DNA of 40,333 nt, from NCBI GenBank assembly GCA_016200355.1, contig JACQEY010000055.1:1-40333 (forward strand), read 5' to 3'. Shown piece by piece: positions 966 through 36,424 of this stretch. The notes below the pieces were generated by a model that did not search any database, was not told where the DNA came from, and worked only from the letters and a program-made list of their open reading frames with translations. The translations under genes and the position numbers were made by a program. The DNA is from Nitrospirota bacterium. GTDB lineage: Bacteria > Nitrospirota > Nitrospiria > Nitrospirales > Nitrospiraceae. How positions within the stretch are numbered: the first letter of the stretch is position 1; each line of letters begins with the position of its first letter.

Positions 966-1041
966 GATGAGGGATACAGGCTGAAGGCTGAAGTGTTCGG
1001 ATCTTCAAACCCAACCTTCAGCCTTCGCGCATACCTGTCTT
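966..1041. repeat. Nested-palindrome heptamer repeat, copy 2
   Basis: ACAGGCTGAAGGCTGAAG on the left faces CTTCAGCCTTCGCGCATACCTGT on the right. The loop contains, in reverse orientation, the family core GAAGATCCGAACACTTCAGC that also occurs in the copies at 29.3 and 32.5 kb. Further GACTTCAGCC-like words continue to about 1142. The gap 902-1143 holds this repeat and the FliA-like promoter, and I see no gene in it. Confidence 0.8.
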
Positions 1042-8518: not shown

Positions 8519-8602
8519 GCGAGACGAGTAGTCCGAAGACTGAAGGCTGAAGGCCGGAGTGCAAAAATCCGAACACTTCAGCCTTTAGCATTCAGCCTGT
8601 CT
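8519..8602. repeat. Nested-palindrome heptamer repeat, copy 3
   Basis: It starts with GCGAGACGAG, then ACTGAAGGCTGAAGG, and ends TTCAGCCTTTAGCATTCAGCCT-GTCT. The inner ATCCGAACACTTCAGCC is identical over 17 nt to the copies at 29.3 and 32.5 kb. It lies in the gap between the last glycosyltransferase gene and the 176-aa gene, at one border of the glycosylation block. Confidence 0.8.
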
Positions 8603-24752: not shown

Positions 24753-24852
24753 AAGAAGTGCTGAGCGCTGAGTAAGTTTCGGACAACTCAGAACTTCCTA
24801 GCTCAGAGCTCAGAACTCAGCACTTCCCAGCAACTCAGCACTCAGCACTTCG
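24753..24852. repeat. Nested-palindrome heptamer repeat, ACTCAGC type
   Basis: The left arm CGAAGAAGTGCTGAGCGCTG pairs with the right arm ACTCAGCACTCAGCACTTCG, whose reverse complement is CGAAGTGCTGAGTGCTGAGT. Between them are further ACTCAGA and CTCAGAG words. The 7-nt unit ACTCAGC is repeated in tandem on the right. It ends 18 nt before the start of the downstream gene. The whole divergent gap 24542-24870 holds this repeat and two FliA-like promoters, and no gene. Confidence 0.85.
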
Positions 24853-24870: not shown

Positions 24871-26148
24871 ATGAGACTTGTGAAAACGATCACAATCGAT
24901 CAACTCAAACCGGGGATGTTCATCGTTGGAATGGACCAAGCGTGGTTTCGAACTCCCTTTCTCCTTCATAAACGCCTCATCCGACATACAAAAGACATCG
25001 AACTCCTCCGACAGCATGGGATCAGAGAAGTGAAGATCGATCCCGGTCGTGGCCTCGATGTGGAGCCGGTTCCGTCAGGAGACCCGTCTCCGTCGTCGAA
25101 CGCACAGGACACAGCCACCCCCCCCCAACCGAGTCATGTGGCGCAACCGGCCTCGGCAGAACAGATTCCCCTGCCTATCTCCAGTGTAGAAATGAACGCA
25201 GCACAACCGTTGCCACCTGTCAGGCAGGAAACTGCGCCGAGGTCGTCGAACGCTCAAGACACAGCCGCCCACTCCCAACCGAGCCATGTGGCACAACTGG
25301 CCTCGACTGAACAGATTTCGCTGCCTGTCTCCAGCGTAGAAATGAACGCAGTACAATCGTTGCCATCCATGAGTCAGGAAACTGCGCCGAGATCATCGAA
25401 CACGCGGGAACAGGCCGCGGCCGCCCAAGAGACCTACAGAGAAGCGACCTCTTCGATGGAACGTATGTTTGAAGAGTTAGAAGCGGGAATCGTCCCTCGA
25501 CAGGATACGTTGCAAATAGTCGTCGGGAATGTACTCTCGCGTGTGCTGGACGATGACGCCTCCATGCTCAGTCTTCTCTCTCTCCAAAAAATGAAACGGT
25601 TCGACCGCACATTGGCCTCGCATGCACTTGATGTCTGTACCCTCTCGCTCATTGTGGCGCAGAACTTTGGGGTTGCGGAGGGAGACCTGGAAGCGCTCGG
25701 CGCCGGGGCCTTGCTGCACGACATCGGCTATGTCCGGTTGCCGCGGAATCTGTACCGGAGAAACCACGATCTTACGGAGCAAGAGCGCACGCTGATGCAG
25801 CAGCATTCTGCGCTGGGATTGGCGATCTTACGGGAGGCACAAGAGGACCGGGACGCCGTCGTGCGGATTGTTGCGGAACATCATGAGTATCTCAATGGGA
25901 ATGGGTTCCCGCACAAACTTGCGGGAGACTCCCTCTCGGTCTTGGCCCAGCTGGTCGGCCTGGTAGACGCCTATGACGGCATGGTGAGTCGCCATGGAGG
26001 CCGTCCTGCGATGCAGCCGCACGATGCCATTCGACAATTGTTCCGGCTTGGAGATATGGGACAGTTCGCAAAGGATTTGATCCGAGCCATGATCGGCAGT
26101 CTTGGCGTCTATCCGATCGGCAGCCTAGTCCTGTTGAACACGGCGTAG
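24871..26148 (+). CDS. Degenerate HD-GYP domain protein with DUF3391
   Basis: 425 aa. DUF3391 (TITIDQLKPGMFIVGMDQAW, 6-60) is followed by a low-complexity linker containing a 50-residue tandem duplication (75-174), then an HD-GYP-type domain (about 205-400). Likely metal ligands remain: H252, H284-D285, H313, H338-H339, D367. The signature is altered: LLHDIGY instead of HDIGK, and HHEYLNGNGFP (338-348) instead of HHExxDGxGYP. It may be a weak or non-hydrolysing c-di-GMP binder or a scaffold. It is the paralogue of the divergent intact HD-GYP gene. No clear Shine-Dalgarno is seen; the start was chosen because DUF3391 begins there. A nine-C run at 25118-25126 lies in the linker. Confidence 0.88.
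   Translation: MRLVKTITIDQLKPGMFIVGMDQAWFRTPFLLHKRLIRHTKDIELLRQHGIREVKIDPGRGLDVEPVPSGDPSPSSNAQDTATPPQPSHVAQPASAEQIPLPISSVEMNAAQPLPPVRQETAPRSSNAQDTAAHSQPSHVAQLASTEQISLPVSSVEMNAVQSLPSMSQETAPRSSNTREQAAAAQETYREATSSMERMFEELEAGIVPRQDTLQIVVGNVLSRVLDDDASMLSLLSLQKMKRFDRTLASHALDVCTLSLIVAQNFGVAEGDLEALGAGALLHDIGYVRLPRNLYRRNHDLTEQERTLMQQHSALGLAILREAQEDRDAVVRIVAEHHEYLNGNGFPHKLAGDSLSVLAQLVGLVDAYDGMVSRHGGRPAMQPHDAIRQLFRLGDMGQFAKDLIRAMIGSLGVYPIGSLVLLNTA
25093..25392 (+). repeat. In-frame tandem duplication of 150 bp
   Basis: Residues 75-124 and 125-174 of the degenerate HD-GYP protein are two copies of a 50-residue unit that starts SSNAQDTA, contains QPSHVAQ and SSVEMNA, and ends QETAPR. A third copy begins (SSNT) and stops. 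Protein identity by eye is roughly 75-80 %, so the event is not recent, or the linker evolves fast. Confidence 0.9.
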
Positions 26149-26160
26149 CAGGCGGTAGTC

Positions 26161-26370
26161 GTGGGGGTGAGTCACACACAGCGGCTCAAACCGGTCGTAA
26201 AAGTGATCACTGGGCCGCGTGGAGAATCCTATCCCACGCCGATTCGCATCGATCTTGGGGGCCAGGCAGCAGGGGATTCAGAGCGGATCATCAAGAAGGC
26301 GCTGGATCCCCTTCAAGAACGAGTGAACGTGGCCATGTTTCTTGACGGTATTCACGAAGAGGCGGCCTGA
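26161..26370 (+). CDS. Small uncharacterised protein between HD-GYP and hybrid kinase
   Basis: 69 aa with a GTG start at 26161 (or GTG at 26167), 12 nt after the HD-GYP stop. Its TGA overlaps the ATG of the kinase by one base (TGATG), the coupling pattern seen elsewhere in the window, which is the main argument that it is real. The sequence is charged and looks folded ([20 protein letters not shown], then [20 protein letters not shown]). I recognise no family. Position suggests a partner of the kinase or the HD-GYP protein. Confidence 0.6.
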
Positions 26371-29246
26371 TGAAACCTATCGCAAAGATTCGCGCGAAGA
26401 CATCTCGCCCTTCAGGGTCACCCGTGCCCCATAGCCCCATGCACCCTGCTCTGTTGGATACGCTCCCAATCGGAGTCGTGCGGCTCGATAGTCGGCTGCG
26501 CATTTTGTCTGTCAACGTTGAAGCCGCTCGCCTTTTGGGACAGTCAGCAGACTTCTGCTCATCAAAGCTTCTACGTGAAATAATGCCACCGCGCCCTGGG
26601 GCATCCAGCCATAATATCTCGACGCGCATCCAGGAGTCCCTTCCCGGTCGTCTCCCCATACAAGCAGCCCACACAATGCTCGTCGGCTCCGCGCATGAAT
26701 CGCGTCCGGTTGAATGGAGCTATGTTCCTCTAGATACCGGAGAAGATTCCGGCGGGGTGTTGACGCTACGCGACCTGACCAGCGAGCGAGAACTGCAGCA
26801 AGATTGCGACCGCCTGGCGCGCGTGGCAGAAGAAAGTCCGTCGCCCATTATCGAGTTGGACTCCGATGCGAATCTCGTCTATGCGAATCCCGCGATGACA
26901 CAGCTGCTGCAGCGGTTCGGCTATGCGACCGGCGGATTTCCAGCCGTGTGTCCTGGTGAGCTATTGCGGCTCGTTCAACGCTGCCTCGAATCGGGACAGG
27001 AGATACGGGTAGAAGAAGTCTGTTTAGCTCAGGCCAGCTTCGCGTGGATTTTCTGCCCGGTCACTTCGCATCGATTGGTTCGCGGTTATGCGGTCGATAT
27101 GACCGACATGAAGGCGGTCCAAGAGGAACTGCGCCAGTCTGTGGCGCAGCTTCAGAACAGCAATCGTCAATTGGATCAGGCACTTCAGGCAGCGCAGGAT
27201 GCCGCTCTCGTGAAGACGTCGTTTCTCGCGACCGTGAGCCACGAATTGCGGACGCCGATGAACGGAATCATTGGGATGACGGACCTATTGATGGATACGG
27301 AACCGTCGGAGGAACAACAATCCTATATCAACCCCATTCGACAATGCGGCGAGGCCTTACTGAGCTTGATCAACGACATTCTTGAGTACGGCAAGATCGA
27401 AGCGGGCAAACTGGAGCTGGAGTGTATTGACTTCAACCTTCGCACGACGGTGGAAGATGTTTTGGGTCAATTCGCGGCACAAGCACAGAACAAAGGGTTG
27501 GAAATCACCGGCCTGGTGCATGCCGCTGTACCGACCGGCCTACGCGGCGATCCGGGGCAGCTCCGTCAGATCCTCACGAACTTCGTCGGCAACGCGATCA
27601 AGTTCACTGAACAGGGTGACGTGACGGTTCAAGCCTTCCTTGAGCAGGATCTGGTCGATGCGGTGGTCGTCCGATTCGAAGTTACCGATAGCGGAATCGG
27701 CATCCCCCCTGACGTACAAGCTCGACTATTCCAACCGTTTACTCAGGCTGACAGCTCCACTTCACGCAAATACGGAGGGACCGGTCTCGGGCTCGCGATT
27801 TCGAAACAGCTCGCCGAGCAAATGGGCGGCACCGTCGGCATCACCAGTCAACCGGGACGCGGCAGTACATTCTGGTGTACCACCCGCTTCCTCAAACAGA
27901 CGACGTCGCCCTTGGCCATCATGCCGTCTGCCGAGTTGGCCGGACGCCGTGTCCTGATCGTAGACGATAATGAATCGAACAGGATCATTCTCCATCACCT
28001 TGTCACAGGATGGGGCATGGTCGACGATCAAGCCCAGGATGCCGCCTCAGCCATGGCACTGATCGAGCAGCAGGCGAGGAACGGCGTATCGTACGATGTG
28101 GCCATTGTCGATATGTTGATGCCGGGAAAGGATGGACTAGAATTCGCCAAGGACATGAAGGTTCATCCTGTTGGATCTCTCGTCCGTCTTGTCATCCTCA
28201 CCTCGCTCATTCAGAGAGGACATGCCGAACTGGCACGCCAGGCCGGCTTCGTCGCCTATCTCACCAAACCTGCCCGCCACGATCAACTCTCAACTTGTTT
28301 GAGAACCGTGCTTGGAATGCCGGAGCTTGTGGGCGAAGCGACAGTGACAACCGTGACTGCGCCTGCCCCGCCGCTCATTACGCGGCACACCCTTGCAGAG
28401 ACAGGGTCGACCGCGCGCATCCTGGTAGCTGAAGACAACCTGATCAATCAGAAACTGACCGTTCGCATGCTGGAAAAACTCGGCTATCAATCGGATGTCG
28501 TGGAAAACGGTCAAGAGGCACTGGCAGCATTGGCCAAAGTCTCCTATGCGATGATCCTGATGGACTGCCAGATGCCGCTCGTCGATGGATTAGAAGCCAC
28601 CAGGCTCATCCGGGAAAATGAACAACATCAATCGTCAATGGTCAATGGTCAATCGATGCCTTCTTCCCATGTTCCAATCGTCGCGTTGACGGCCAATGCC
28701 ATGAGCGGGGATCGAGACCGCTGTCTCGCTGCCGGCATGGACGATTATTTAACGAAGCCCGTCCGCAAGGACAACCTCCAGGGAGCCCTCGATCGCTGGA
28801 TTCCTCTGTCCATGCATCCACAAGCCGCACATGCCGGTGATGCAGAAGACAGCACGGGTGGAACAGATGCTGAGACTCTTCCTGCTGTCTTTGATGTGAC
28901 CGCGATGTTAAGAAACATCGGAGGCGATACTAGACTATTGGAGGAGCTAGTTAAACTGTTTCTTCAACGCTATCAAGCCATGTTGGAAGCAATCCGAGCC
29001 GCCCTAGCCAGCACAGATCAAGCAGCCGTCGAACAGGCTGCTCACACGATGAAAGGGACTGCCGGCAATCTCTGCGCATCGGAGGTGGTGTTGTACGCTG
29101 GACAATTAGAGGCGCTTGGAAGACTCGGCACGCTGGTTGAAGGCCCAATCATCTATGCTCAGCTCGAAAAAGCGGTACTCCGCCTCCTCCAACATCTGGA
29201 ACAACGAAACCAGCGCCAACGCGAGGTCAGAAGACCTGCCGCATAA
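26370..29246 (+). CDS. Soluble hybrid histidine kinase: PAS-PAS-HisKA-HATPase-REC-REC-Hpt
   Basis: 958 aa, no membrane segment. Two PAS-like regions (about 27-140 and 150-250) and a coiled coil lead to HisKA ([17 protein letters not shown]291). HATPase_c follows (FVGNAIKF with N408, [22 protein letters not shown]). REC1 is at about 527-645 (VDDNES, D581, K633) and REC2 at about 683-812 (AEDN, D732, K796). The C-terminal Hpt has H892 in [11 protein letters not shown]. All relay residues are present, so a full His-Asp-His relay is possible. REC2 contains an in-frame insertion (about 750-767) encoded by heptamer repeats. The convergent gene at 29318 is a paralogue with the same PLITRHxLAE linker between REC1 and REC2 but no Hpt. 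The output regulator is not in the window. Confidence 0.93.
28628..28654 (+). repeat. Heptamer array inside the REC2 coding sequence of the soluble kinase
   Basis: TCAATC is followed by GTCAATG, GTCAATG and GTCAATC: three consecutive 7-nt units, 21 nt, which keeps the frame. It encodes SSMVNGQS in the loop between alpha-3 and beta-4 of the second receiver domain. Confidence 0.8.
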
Positions 29247-29247
29247 G

Positions 29248-29354
29248 AGGTCGAAGGCTGAAGGAGTGCGGGCTGAAGATTGGAGATCGAAGGCCGAAGA
29301 TCCGAACACTTCAGCCCTCAGCCTTCAGCCTGTACTCCTTCAGCCTTCGGCCTT
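29248..29354. repeat. Nested-palindrome heptamer repeat, copy 4, between convergent kinases
   Basis: The left arm has CGAAGGCTGAAGGAGT and GGGCTGAAG. The right arm, 29309-29354, has CTTCAGCCCTCAGCC, TTCAGCCT, ACTCCTTCAGCCTTCG and is longer by one extra unit. It contains the 20-nt core GAAGATCCGAACACTTCAGC. The repeat spans the 71-nt convergent gap and runs into the 3' end of the minus-strand kinase, so it could act as a bidirectional terminator-like hairpin. It encodes that kinase's last residues. Confidence 0.85.
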
Positions 29355-31954
29355 GAGCCCGCCGAGACCAGCGGGACCCAGTGCGCGAGCACCTCGGCTA
29401 AGACTTTGGATTGCACGGGTTTGCTCATGTAGTCATCCATGCCGGCTGCGAGGCATCGAGCACGATCTTCCGGCATGGCATTCGCCGTCATGGCTATGAT
29501 TGGAATGCGCCTGGAAGGCGCGTCACTCGTGAAGCGTGAAGCGTGAAGCGTCGTTTGGATCTCGTCCGGCGTTTCACAGTTCACGTCTAACGCGTCACAG
29601 GTCTTCCGTATCTCATTCTGCACTTCACATGTCGTTCCCATCTCGTCTGACGCTTCACGCCGCCTGATTTCCGCCGTCGCGGCGAAACCATCCAGTTCCG
29701 GCATCTGGCAATCCATGAGGACCGCAGCATAGGCAATCCGCCCGAGCGCCTCGAGGGCCTCGTGGCCATTGGCCGCCACATCCACCCGATACCCCAGCTT
29801 TTCCAGCATCCGGACGGCGACCTTCTGGTTGATGACGTTATCCTCGGCAAGCAGAATCTTGGGAGTGACCTGGGTTTTGCGTTCGGCCAAACTGTGGCGC
29901 GTAATCAACGGAGCCGGTGTGGCCGGCACCGGCGGGGCCAGCACTGCGAGGAGGCATTCATACAGTTGCCTCTCATGCACCGGCTTGGTGAGATACGCGG
30001 CATAACCGGCCGTCTGCGCCAGCTTGGCATCGCCTCGCTGCCCCTGGGAGGTCAAGAGAATGAGCCGGGTGGGCGCCAACACCGCATCGGCCTTGATCAC
30101 CCGGGCCAGTTCCAGGCCGTCCATCCCGGGCATCTGCATGTCAATGATGGCAAACTCGCATGCGACGCCCTCCGCGGCGGCAGTCCGCAAGCAGGCTAAA
30201 GCCTCCGGGCCGTCCACGGCTAGCCGACACTGAAGACCCCATTTCGTCGCGTACGCCTCCAGAATGCGGCGGTTGGTGGCATGGTCATCTACGATACACA
30301 GGCTGCGCCCTTGCAAACTCTGCGCGGGCCAGTTGTCCACCGATGCGGTGCCCGGCGCTTGTGTCGCGAGGGACACCGTGAACCAGAACGTACTGCCCGC
30401 CCCGGGCTGACTCTCCACCCCGATCTGGCCCCCCATGAGTTCCGTGAGCTGTTTGCAGATGGCGAGTCCCAACCCCGTGCCACCGTATTTGCGCGTGGTC
30501 GAACTGTCGGCCTGGCTGAAGGCCTGAAATAGGTGTCCTTGCGCCTCAGGGGAGAGGCCGATGCCGGTGTCTTGGATCTCGAACCGCACCGTAACCCGGT
30601 CATCGGTGCCCTGTCCCAGCAACACCGAGAGCACGACTTCGCCCTGCGCCGTAAACTTGAAGGCATTCGACAGGAGGTTCAGCAGAATCTGCCGCAGCCG
30701 ACCGGGATCGCCCCGGAGAGCGGAGGGTACGTTCGCATGGATCAAGCAGGCCAGGTTCACCCCCTTGTCGGCGGCAGGCTTGGCTACCAGATCCAACGTT
30801 TCGTCGATGGTGGTGCGCAGATCAAAGTCGAGAATCTCCAACGACATCTTGCCGGCTTCAATTTTTGAAAAATCGAGGATGTCGTTGATGATCATGAGCA
30901 GGTGCTCCCCGCTACTGCGGACCGTCTCGGCATAGTCCCGCTGCTCGGGTGTGAGGTCGGTATCGAGCAAGAGGCCGGTCATGCCGATGACACCATTCAT
31001 GGGGGTGCGAATCTCGTGGCTCATGGTCGCAAGAAAGGCCGCCTTGGTTTTGACCGCTGCCAACGCCACGTCACGAGCCTCGACCAGTTGAGATGTCCGC
31101 TGGCGCACTTTTTCATCCAGGGAGACATTCACCTGTAATAGCTCCATGGACTGGGTTTTGAGGAGCCCAACCGTCACATGGGCCGCGGCCACGGTTTCTT
31201 CGAATTCTCCTCGGTCGAAGCTGCGCTTCTTCACGGTCACCTTCTCAGGGCTCTCTTGAAACAGCACCACGTCACCGGAAAGACTGAAGATCGAGAAGGC
31301 TTCTTCCAGTTGCGCCAGAATCGAATTGAAGGCCGCTCCCACCCGCCTCATGACAAACCGAATGACAAAGAAGCCGATCAGGATCGCAGCCAGCGTAATA
31401 GCAATCGTGCGCCACATGGCCAGCCGGGCTTCATGCTGAATCCGAGCCATGGAATATTCAATACGAATCCACCCAGAAATTACCTGTCCGTCACGCAATG
31501 GCGCCATGAAGGCAAGGGCTGGTTCACCGGCTTGGTTGGTAAACGCACGGAGCTGTTCACTTCCCGTCTGCGTGGAGGTCTCCCACAGCAGATCGCGTAG
31601 AACGGTTCCGATCCGTTCAGGATGCTTGGCTGCCACAATCAGGTTGTCCGGGTCGATCACCTCCAGTTCCCTGATGTCAGGATTGTTCTGATAGATCATC
31701 AACGCCTCTTGAAAACGAAACAGGTTGTCGAAGATCGCTGCCGATCCGATCACGACAAACGCGTGGCCGATCTCGCGCACCTGCTCTTCGGCGGCATGGT
31801 GGAGGGCCTGCATCTGCTGGTTGATTGTCCAAGCCGAACCGCCACCGATGACCAGCAGAATGAAGAGACAGAGCCCGAGCGTCAGTCGGGTCCGCAGACT
31901 GCCCGTCCATGTGCGCATGAACCATGTCCAGATAGGGAACGTTGGCGTCGGCAT
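29318..31954 (-). CDS. Membrane hybrid histidine kinase: sensor-HisKA-HATPase-REC-REC
   Basis: 878 aa. TM1 is at about 24-44 and TM2 at about 181-201, flanking a periplasmic sensor of about 135 residues. The linker, including coiled coil, leads to HisKA ([17 protein letters not shown]313) and HATPase_c ([30 protein letters not shown]). REC1 has D605 and K657; REC2 has D748 and K845. There is no Hpt domain, unlike the convergent paralogue, so phosphate would have to leave through a separate Hpt, possibly the paralogue's. REC2 carries a 48-residue insertion (about 767-814) from repeat DNA, and the tail KAEGVQAEG is also repeat-encoded. The gene is 19 nt downstream of the 131-aa gene and shares its FliA-like promoter. 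Confidence 0.93.
29529..29658. repeat. Heptamer inverted array inside the REC2 coding sequence of the membrane kinase
   Basis: Three tandem GTGAAGC units (29529-29549, 21 nt) are closed about 100 nt further by the inverted unit GCTTCAC (29652-29658), with TTCACAG, TTCACGT and CTTCACA words between. GTGAAGCGTCGTT is shared with the intergenic copy at 36.4 kb. It encodes an insertion of about 48 residues (767-814) between alpha-3 and beta-4 of REC2, rich in Cys, Thr, Asp and Glu. Confidence 0.85.
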
Positions 31955-32460: not shown

Positions 32461-32575
32461 GTGAGCTGAAGGCTGAAGAGGTACAGGCTGAAAGTCAGAG
32501 GTCAGAGGTCAGAAGTCGGAGGCCGAAGATCCGAACACTTCAGCCTTCAACCTTCGGACCTCGCCCGTCTCACTC
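32461..32575. repeat. Nested-palindrome heptamer repeat, copy 5
   Basis: AGCTGAAGGCTGAAG on the left faces CTTCAGCCTTCAACCTTCGG on the right. The tandem units GTCAGAG, GTCAGAG and GTCAGAA lie in the middle, next to the core GAAGATCCGAACACTTCAGC. Identity with copy 4 extends to 26 nt around the core. It lies just downstream of the fliW stop. Confidence 0.85.
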
Positions 32576-35726: not shown

Positions 35727-35750
35727 TTACCCCTCTATCAGGCTGCATAA

Positions 35751-35820
35751 ATTTGGTTTGTCTGGTTGATCTGGTTCGTTTCGTTCAACCAAATAGTCAG
35801 ACAGACCAGACAAACCAAAT
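35751..35820. repeat. Inverted repeat, TTTGGTTTGTCTGGT type, long copy
   Basis: ATTTGGTTTGTCTGGT (35751-35766) pairs perfectly over 16 bp with ACCAGACAAACCAAAT (35805-35820). Further CTGGTT and CAGACAG words sit inside. It lies between flgN and flgK in the transcribed operon and shares a 15-mer with the copy at 2.9 kb. The 12-mer TTCAGCATCCTG (35829-35840) follows at the flgN stop. Confidence 0.85.
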
Positions 35821-35840
35821 AAACTAAATTCAGCATCCTG

Positions 35841-36350: not shown

Positions 36351-36370
36351 AGTTCTCGGTATCCATTACG

Positions 36371-36416
36371 CGTGAAGCGTCGTTCGTTTCCGGATTCGGA
36401 CGCTTCGCGCTTCACG
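36371..36416. repeat. Inverted repeat, GTGAAGC type
   Basis: CGTGAAGCGTCG on the left faces CGCTTCGCGCTTCACG (36401-36416) on the right. The left word GTGAAGCGTCGTT is shared with the array inside the membrane kinase gene at 29.5 kb. It lies between flgM and flgN within the operon. Confidence 0.75.
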
Positions 36417-36424
36417 GATTGCTG

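Follow-up and report, generated by a model that had tools for sequence, protein, structure and literature searches.

The window analysed here, a 40,333-nucleotide (nt) stretch of DNA, is one Nitrospira contig of a 2.94-Mb draft genome that is 92.6% complete (G000), and it carries two convergent hybrid histidine kinases, P0001 and P0002, each with short arrays of 7-nt words written into the loop between alpha-3 and beta-4 of its second receiver (REC) domain, REC2 (Table 1). These loops are compared below with those of other Nitrospirota genomes (labelled G) and of sequence stretches taken from them (labelled L); the genome-wide searches covered 32 genomes of the genus. The receiver domains of both kinases are recognised by Pfam Response_reg matches, which in P0002 fall in three stretches, by the retention of D57, T132 and K154 in 25 aligned rows, by a REC-like model and by matches in the PDB. 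All 25 aligned RECs have the active-site lysine, and also the aspartate and the threonine, though the last two belonged to the pattern by which most of the rows were picked. In the model of P0002 REC2, based on the 25-sequence alignment, the receiver fold is kept, with most core blocks at a predicted local distance difference test (pLDDT) score of 90-98; alpha-3 extends into the insert (model residues 65-97) and the remaining insert is poorly determined, with scores of 49-64. The solved structures that best match the model are receiver domains, several of them from hybrid kinases. In REC domains the alpha3-beta4 loop sits away from the phosphorylation site, and because of this an insert that keeps the frame would be tolerated in the loop of the last REC.

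The window is rich in sequence of period 7. Exact runs of this period with at least eight matched bases number seven, against a mean of 0.55 (maximum 2) in 20 Markov-2 simulations, while every other period between 4 and 12 yields 0-3 such runs; three runs have at least 13 matched bases, against none in each of 200 Markov-3 simulations. A first-pass annotation of this DNA had placed a heptamer array in each of the two kinases, between alpha-3 and beta-4 of REC2 and with the reading frame preserved, and on all these points it was correct. It had also taken both arrays for insertions, with about 48 residues added in P0002. The P0002 loop is indeed lengthened, with 52 amino acids (aa) where the shortest loops among the hybrid kinases sampled have 8-10, an excess of about 42 residues. 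The P0001 loop, by contrast, is an equal-length replacement: at 19 aa it has the length of the plain loops found in nine of 17 compared orthologues, so its heptamers belong to a swapped loop with no net insertion. Similarly, the three heptamers and the inverted copy that had been described on the minus strand are present, the sole exact inverted GCTTCAC of the loop region lying at 29652, but they belong to a region of palindromic element in which several units are degenerate.

Replacement of the loop can be followed among the orthologues of P0001. A tree of 17 orthologues was calculated with the loop excluded, in which eight of the 15 inner branches are well supported; outside it are G014, G018 and G021, with plain loops of the P0001 kind, and G008, with a repeat loop. 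Nine of the 17 have a plain loop of 19 aa and eight a repeat-bearing one. Among sisters, G019 has 39 aa of repeats where G017 is plain, and G027 has 26 aa of repeats where G007 is plain, with the loop of G027 also found in G022 elsewhere in that group. Two further pairs differ in the loop word itself, GTCAATG in G000 as opposed to CCCTTAC in G031, and GTGAAGC/CCCTTAC in G002 as opposed to GGAATGT in G015. In these four switched pairs the flanks are 0.84-0.93 identical and the loops 0.21-0.43, whereas three pairs that agree in loop type maintain an identity of 0.74-0.89. Near-identical flanks around unrelated loops in sisters imply that the loop was exchanged as a unit. The tree and the sister identities bear out the earlier proposal that the different words record separate events, and the alignment of orthologues that had been suggested as a check revealed plain-loop alleles and no common insertion sequence, an outcome that the proposal survives. 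The window's two kinases count as two separate cases.

The period of seven is a property of these loops across the genus and the phylum. From kinase loci, 60 further stretches and other fetched stretches, a sample of RECs, 89 loops were parsed and three misparsed ones dropped, leaving 86. In 35 loops from the genus the base identity at lag 7 is 0.429, against 0.243 (standard deviation (SD) 0.008) in control windows of equal length taken from those genes; there is a rise at lags 14 and 21 as well, scarcely any at lag 6 and none at lag 8. A similar value, 0.439, is given by 18 loops on 13 other Nitrospirota contigs (two contig pairs each coming from one assembly). This recount leaves out L042, L043, L044, L049 and L078; an earlier group of 24 Nitrospirota loops was not independent, as L042, L044 and L049 appear to be contigs belonging to G002, G031 and G018. 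Contig L078, titled as a Klebsiella pneumoniae metagenome-assembled genome, has a kinase 41% identical to the query, and the title may be wrong. A lag-7 cut of 0.43 is passed by 27 of the 86 loops. Loops of at least 14 aa, of which there are 49, account for 25 of these passes, compared with an average of 0.9 passes and a maximum of 4 in 200 draws of random windows. Across 882 kb of sampled Nitrospirota sequence, with two own-genome stretches reading N removed from the counts, there are 27 strong period-7 arrays, against 0-1 at each of six other lags. Nine of the arrays are intergenic, six lie near the starts of open reading frames (ORFs) and 12 are inside ORFs, the last being made up of nine REC loops, one CheB linker, one CheA linker and one loop of a XerC/D-like protein; nine of 12 is no genome-wide rate, as the sampling of stretches centred mostly on kinases or GTGAAGC matches.

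The same words are dispersed through the genomes. Three tandem copies of GTGAARC were found by pattern search in 27 of the 32 genus genomes and of GTAAGGG in nine, and, when one mismatch was allowed, of GGCRAGR in 25 and of GGTCAAT in six, with no matches for the reversed controls. The nine GTAAGGG genomes include G002, G015 and G031, the three of the genus where tandem CCCTTAC was seen in kinase loops, and these three have sites beyond those loops; likewise G000, with GTCAATG in its loop, is one of the six GGTCAAT genomes and has three other sites. This agreement between loop words and genome words is suggestive, though not independent, as these genomes are related. A core that is not heptameric, CGTCGTTCGTTTCCGGATTCGGACG (25 nt, up to three mismatches), also occurs in 27 of the 32 genomes, with eight copies in G000, 15 in G008 and 13 in G019, and none for the control. 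The column consensus of 30 copies, two of which are twins, reads CGTGAAGCGTATCTCGTGAAG, the core CGTCGTTCGTTTCCGGATTCGGACG, TTTCACGCTTCACG and then a looser tail with ACGA. A profile was made from 24 copies lying outside any open frame of at least 150 codons, with L304, the twin of L285, omitted, and was searched over 1.17 Mb. Besides intergenic copies, it matches the kinase loops of P0002 in the window (E 8.9e-7), two kinases of G008 (1.8e-13 and 3.4e-4), G006 (3.7e-10), G003 (1e-9) and G002 (2.8e-4), as well as the CheA linker of G002 (1.2e-6); in a reversed sequence database the same profile has no match at E 0.01. Stretches L285 (G010:C19) and L304 (G002:C22) are identical as printed around the core, from either a recent exchange or a contaminant contig.

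The two arms of these repeats stand in a constant order. In the sampled stretches 41 two-armed clusters are forward-first, none inverse-first and five mixed, in a count over analyst-defined families in which 'forward' is the G-rich arm noticed first; four of the 41 are inside ORFs. The first-pass annotation pictured simple tandem-heptamer insertion; what it missed is that the palindromes are dispersed, conserve a core that is not heptameric and have their arms in constant order. Turnover is also visible between genes. In 15 printed segments of orthologous places in the window and G002, compared by eye, one has the same repeat family in both genomes, four have switched family, six show a repeat hairpin in just one of the two and four are unscorable, with the flanking DNA mostly 77-89% identical. 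The final codons of P0002, and its TGA stop, come from the GGCTGAA hairpin between the two kinases.

Table 1. Kinase genes, receiver-domain loops and repeat features of the window.
Feature	Position	Strand	Basis or remark
P0001 hybrid histidine kinase: PAS, HisKA, HATPase_c, two REC, Hpt	26370..29246	+	ORF, Pfam
P0002 convergent hybrid histidine kinase: HisKA, HATPase_c, two REC	29318..31954	-	ORF, Pfam
P0001 REC2 alpha3-beta4 loop, 19 codons, residues 749-767	28614..28670	+	
GTCAATG (28634), GTCAATG (28641) and GTCAATC (28648) heptamers in the P0001 loop	28634..28654	+	also TRF 28628-28653
P0002 REC2 alpha3-beta4 loop, 52 codons, residues 765-816	29507..29662	-	
Three GTGAAGC heptamers (29529, 29536, 29543; coding strand GCTTCAC)	29529..29549	+	
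Degenerate units of about 30 nt and inverted heptamer arm (29652-29658)	29584..29658	-	TRF
P0002 loop match to the profile of the dispersed palindromic element	29526..29591	+	E 8.9e-7, alignment
Intergenic element copy with exact core CGTCGTTCGTTTCCGGATTCGGACG, one of the 24 profile copies	36360..36420	+	pattern, profile E 1.7e-16
GGCTGAA hairpin between the two kinases	29256..29346	.	
Intergenic GGCTGAA hairpin	979..1024	.	
Intergenic GGCTGAA hairpin; G002 has a 9-mer TTTGGTTTG-type hairpin at the corresponding place	8545..8598	.	
Intergenic GTGCTGA hairpin	24758..24849	.	
Intergenic GGCTGAA hairpin enclosing a GTCAGAG array (32494-32513)	32471..32546	.	
Intergenic 9-mer (TTTGGTTTG type) hairpin, approximate limits; G002 has a GTGAAAC heptamer hairpin there	35750..35830	.	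by eye

Within the loops, 48 of 51 forward heptamers lie in the 5' half and 43 of 46 inverted heptamers in the 3' half, and the forward-first order places the TGA-bearing words first. Where the frame is the one in which the word would bring a stop, the copies in 47 loops have TTA nine times, TCA twice and TGA never, while in the other two frames 35 of 45 have TGA and one has TTA. A recount over 86 genus loops gave TTA seven times, TCA three times and TGA never in the stop frame, with 37 of 49 TGA and one TTA in the other frames. The lack of TGA is uninformative, as an in-frame TGA is impossible in an open gene; the informative observation is that TTA is nearly confined to the stop frame. In two P0002-type kinases of relatives, those of G006 (L129 10578-10632) and G003 (L026 3596-3668), the reading frame after the repeat-bearing loop is not the one before it, and the G006 kinase is also without the phosphoacceptor aspartate; these may be either broken genes or errors of the drafts.

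Two relatives also have in-frame heptamer palindromes in chemotaxis-protein linkers, one in a CheB (L132 11965-12040) and one in a CheA (L122 3187-3271). A loop of the XerC/D-like recombinase of G000 has GCTGATG heptamers (L151 10895-10932, G000:C97), and its state varies between groups of relatives. This gene was considered as a clean empty-site case and set aside, several relatives having the same loop state and others an unrelated loop. A role of the hairpins as terminators or in 3' untranslated regions was likewise rejected, since there is no deficit between divergent genes: the 41 two-armed clusters divide into 21 between tandem, seven between convergent and seven between divergent genes, four in ORFs and two at edges, and the adjacent gene pairs are 418 tandem, 74 convergent and 68 divergent. 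Rfam has no family over the hairpins in five sources, its only matches being to tRNA and signal recognition particle RNA, and the PADLOC matches fall only over kinase or receiver stretches.

Several other repeats accompany the heptamer families. A parallel family of two-armed hairpins is made from 9-nt words of the TTTGGTTTG type (window 35750-35830; L122 7643-7718; L129 14404-14497; L131 5529-5622), and at the two places compared these occupy the sites of heptamer hairpins in the other genome. Larger repeats bounded by CAGGATGCTGAAAA and TTTTCAGCATCCTG, some of them enclosing a heptamer element, are found at window 22498, at L124 5346-5512 and around seven of 29 core copies. In a survey of 148 Nitrospirota genomes, GGCTGAA in three copies (one mismatch) is patchy, with matches in 27 of them and in none of 27 sampled genomes from other genera of the same family; the two control matches are both in genome G154. 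Upstream of P0001, two copies of a 150-nt unit with 85% matches lie at 25092-25401 of the window, within a 425-aa ORF (24871-26148).

Taken together, it is very likely that palindromic heptamer repeats have repeatedly entered or replaced the REC alpha3-beta4 loop and become protein there, with the enzyme core left intact. Nitrospira genomes hold several short palindromic families of 7-nt words (GTGAARC, GTRAGGG, GGCTGAA, GTGCTGA, GGTNAAT, GGCRAGR and others), usually with a G-rich arm first and a C-rich arm second, which are mostly intergenic and turn over rapidly, with copies also landing in coding DNA. Out-of-frame copies would break the gene, and surviving copies carry other codons where the repeat would bring stops. 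On this reading the alpha3-beta4 loop of the last REC of hybrid kinases has received repeats, and had its content exchanged, on several occasions. We take the repeats to be a mobile or recombining palindrome family whose entries survive where the protein can bear them. The inference of the first-pass annotation that the loop tolerates repeat entry, and that repeats in coding DNA yield new protein sequence, agrees with the orthologue tree, the sister identities and the profile matches.

A number of observations weigh against this reading. The match of the P0002 loop to the profile draws partly on the heptamers themselves, the arms aligning well and the central core being degraded, as would be expected for an old copy, and the GTCAATG loop of P0001 matches no profile and agrees in word only. 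No target duplication, a sign that the first-pass annotation had suggested looking for, was found, nor is there a clean empty site in the switched loops, where the whole loop is replaced. The arm order depends on the families as the analyst defined them. The changed frames in G006 and G003 could be assembly errors, as most of the genomes are drafts. RNA folding of the 47 loops is weak, with a mean z of -0.75 compared with -0.21 for controls, and seven of 47 below -2 compared with one of 47. Outside Nitrospirota the periodicity is weaker, lag 7 being 0.322 in 47 loops against 0.252 (SD 0.009), and although lag 14 is 0.357, lag 8 is also up, at 0.305; this signal, common to other lags, may reflect common descent.

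A further such point is the mover. The Y1_Tnp family (PF01797), the HUH-type tyrosine transposase associated with repetitive extragenic palindromes (REPs), has no match in the 92.6%-complete G000 draft, and it is absent from 13 of the 32 genus genomes, nine of which have GTGAARC arrays, and present in 19. The host transposase by which REPs and REPINs with a RAYT are recognised was thus not found in the G000 draft, in a search that covered Y1 only. CGTC-tagged REPs have a single stem of 20-40 bp and an unpaired CGTC tag at one end; the core here opens with CGTC, but conservation extends over about 70 nt and several pairings are possible. Compared with miniature inverted-repeat transposable elements (MITEs), inverted ends are present, most clearly by eye in the GGCTGAA family of G002, and no target duplication was seen. 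The GGCTGAA hairpins of G002 with ends resembling terminal inverted repeats (CAGGTAGATAGGCTGAAG and CTTCAGCCTATCTACCTGAG, in several copies) are MITE-like (L123 8343-8419, L127 13900-13969, L122 5572-5631). The head-to-tail 7-nt arrays fit the definition of a simple heptanucleotide repeat, and the two-armed arrays go beyond it.

It could be argued that the repeats are born locally, without mobility, slippage expanding a chance heptamer and template switching in a quasi-palindrome producing the inverted arm. The start of the loop, Arg-Glu-Ala, is itself written CGTGAAGC in several kinase genes and would be a seed for slippage; the number of copies of a word varies, with seven exact CCCTTAC copies and two variants in G031; and it has been proposed earlier, as the sources put it, that 7-nt units favour slippage (PMC4692102, PMC4679880). 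However, a 25-nt core that is not heptameric is dispersed through 27 of the 32 genomes and is found, slightly changed, in kinase loops, the arm order is 41 to 0 where template switching should produce both, and the loop words match words elsewhere in the same genome, GTAAGGG outside the kinase loops in G002, G015 and G031 included. Local birth is consequently unlikely as the explanation, the shared core and the one-sided arm order leaving slippage short of a full account, though slippage probably adds to the changes in copy number.

Selection for change in the loop, with the repeats serving as raw material against cross-talk between paralogous RECs or for a new contact surface, would be in keeping with the many kinases that have repeat loops, the replacements between sisters and the conservation of the receiver core. 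Intergenic repeats turn over too, as fits neutral traffic, and plain loops of 19 aa and 10 aa persist in many genomes, so that selection seems quite unlikely, and we infer neutral tolerance of the insert instead. Spread of loop sequences by gene conversion between paralogous kinases is suggested by the common loop endings of different kinase types, SSTPYPLPFTPRR in the P0001 type of G002 and SSTPYPLPLTPHR in the P0002 type of G015, with SPLASRH in several. Yet the flanks are near-identical to those of the orthologue right up to the loop, and the same DNA is found between genes and in CheA; gene conversion may help to spread loops but leaves their origin unexplained, and as the main process it is improbable. 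That the loops are ordinary ancestral protein sequence, with DNA repetitive by chance, has next to no likelihood: some are conserved and non-repetitive (the 10-aa ERERQTQAAR type and the plain 19-aa type), but the periodicity shows at 7, 14 and 21 nt and is absent from most other lags, sister loops are unrelated, and the profile search finds the same DNA outside genes, contradicting such an origin.

Palindromes within genes are known from other bacteria. The Rickettsia palindromic elements are short palindromes, 105-146 bp long (PMC2229807), that occur both between genes and in frame within protein genes, where they add peptide segments (PMC2229807, PMC3733652). The likeness is in being intragenic and in frame; the descriptions cited give no heptamer build, whereas the Nitrospirota repeats are heptamer arrays with a core, and paralogues carry them time and again in a single loop of a single domain family. 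The GTAG- and CGTC-tagged REPs are dispersed palindromes, some intragenic and some providing stop codons, the CGTC type being described without a known transposase, and in two Xanthomonas species different REPs lie at about the same site in recB (PMC3733652). In that account REPs are palindromes of 20-40 bp that bear an unpaired tag and lie chiefly downstream of genes (PMC3733652); the Nitrospira element differs in its length of about 70 nt, its variable heptamer arms and the lack of a deficit between divergent genes. Heptameric intergenic repeats have been reported as GGGAATC in Xanthomonas, where inverted repeats are mentioned, and GGGGA(T/C)T in Nostoc (PMC4692102), and as TAACTGA in Beggiatoaceae, where 10 of 170 sets are inside ORFs (PMC4679880). 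These share the 7-nt unit, the mainly intergenic position and the variable copy number. As described, they use one or two words per genome. Nitrospira genomes have many, most of them arranged as two-armed hairpins with a fixed arm order, and also a dispersed non-heptamer core and a coding site that is entered repeatedly. The enterobacterial RU/ERIC sequences, small and mobile, are translated as parts of genes (PMC2759123), but differ in sequence and size, and no recurrent single-loop target is described in that source. REPs of Nitrospira moscoviensis have been counted before, the species being named in one table row of a REP survey (PMC12306157). Among the matches listed, no paper concerns heptamer palindromes in Nitrospira or the entry of repeats into receiver-domain loops. 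Compared with the known in-frame REPs and Rickettsia elements, the heptamer build, the constant arm order and the repeated striking of one loop are unusual.

The loops amount to a natural repeated experiment in which non-coding repeat DNA becomes protein at one structural site in many orthologues and paralogues, with plain and repeat-bearing alleles, and apparently broken and surviving frames, side by side. The question of whether intragenic palindromes are passengers or raw material thereby becomes testable in a biochemically simple domain, and a repeat family is marked that apparently spreads without a recognised enzyme in nitrite-oxidising bacteria. A bolder proposal, to which we give a small chance, is that active heptamer palindromes without a known transposase prefer the REC loop as a landing or exchange site, rewriting the phosphorelay surface and separating paralogous pathways. 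If this were true, the repeats would be a genome-encoded source of the variation that separates paralogous signalling pathways in Nitrospira.

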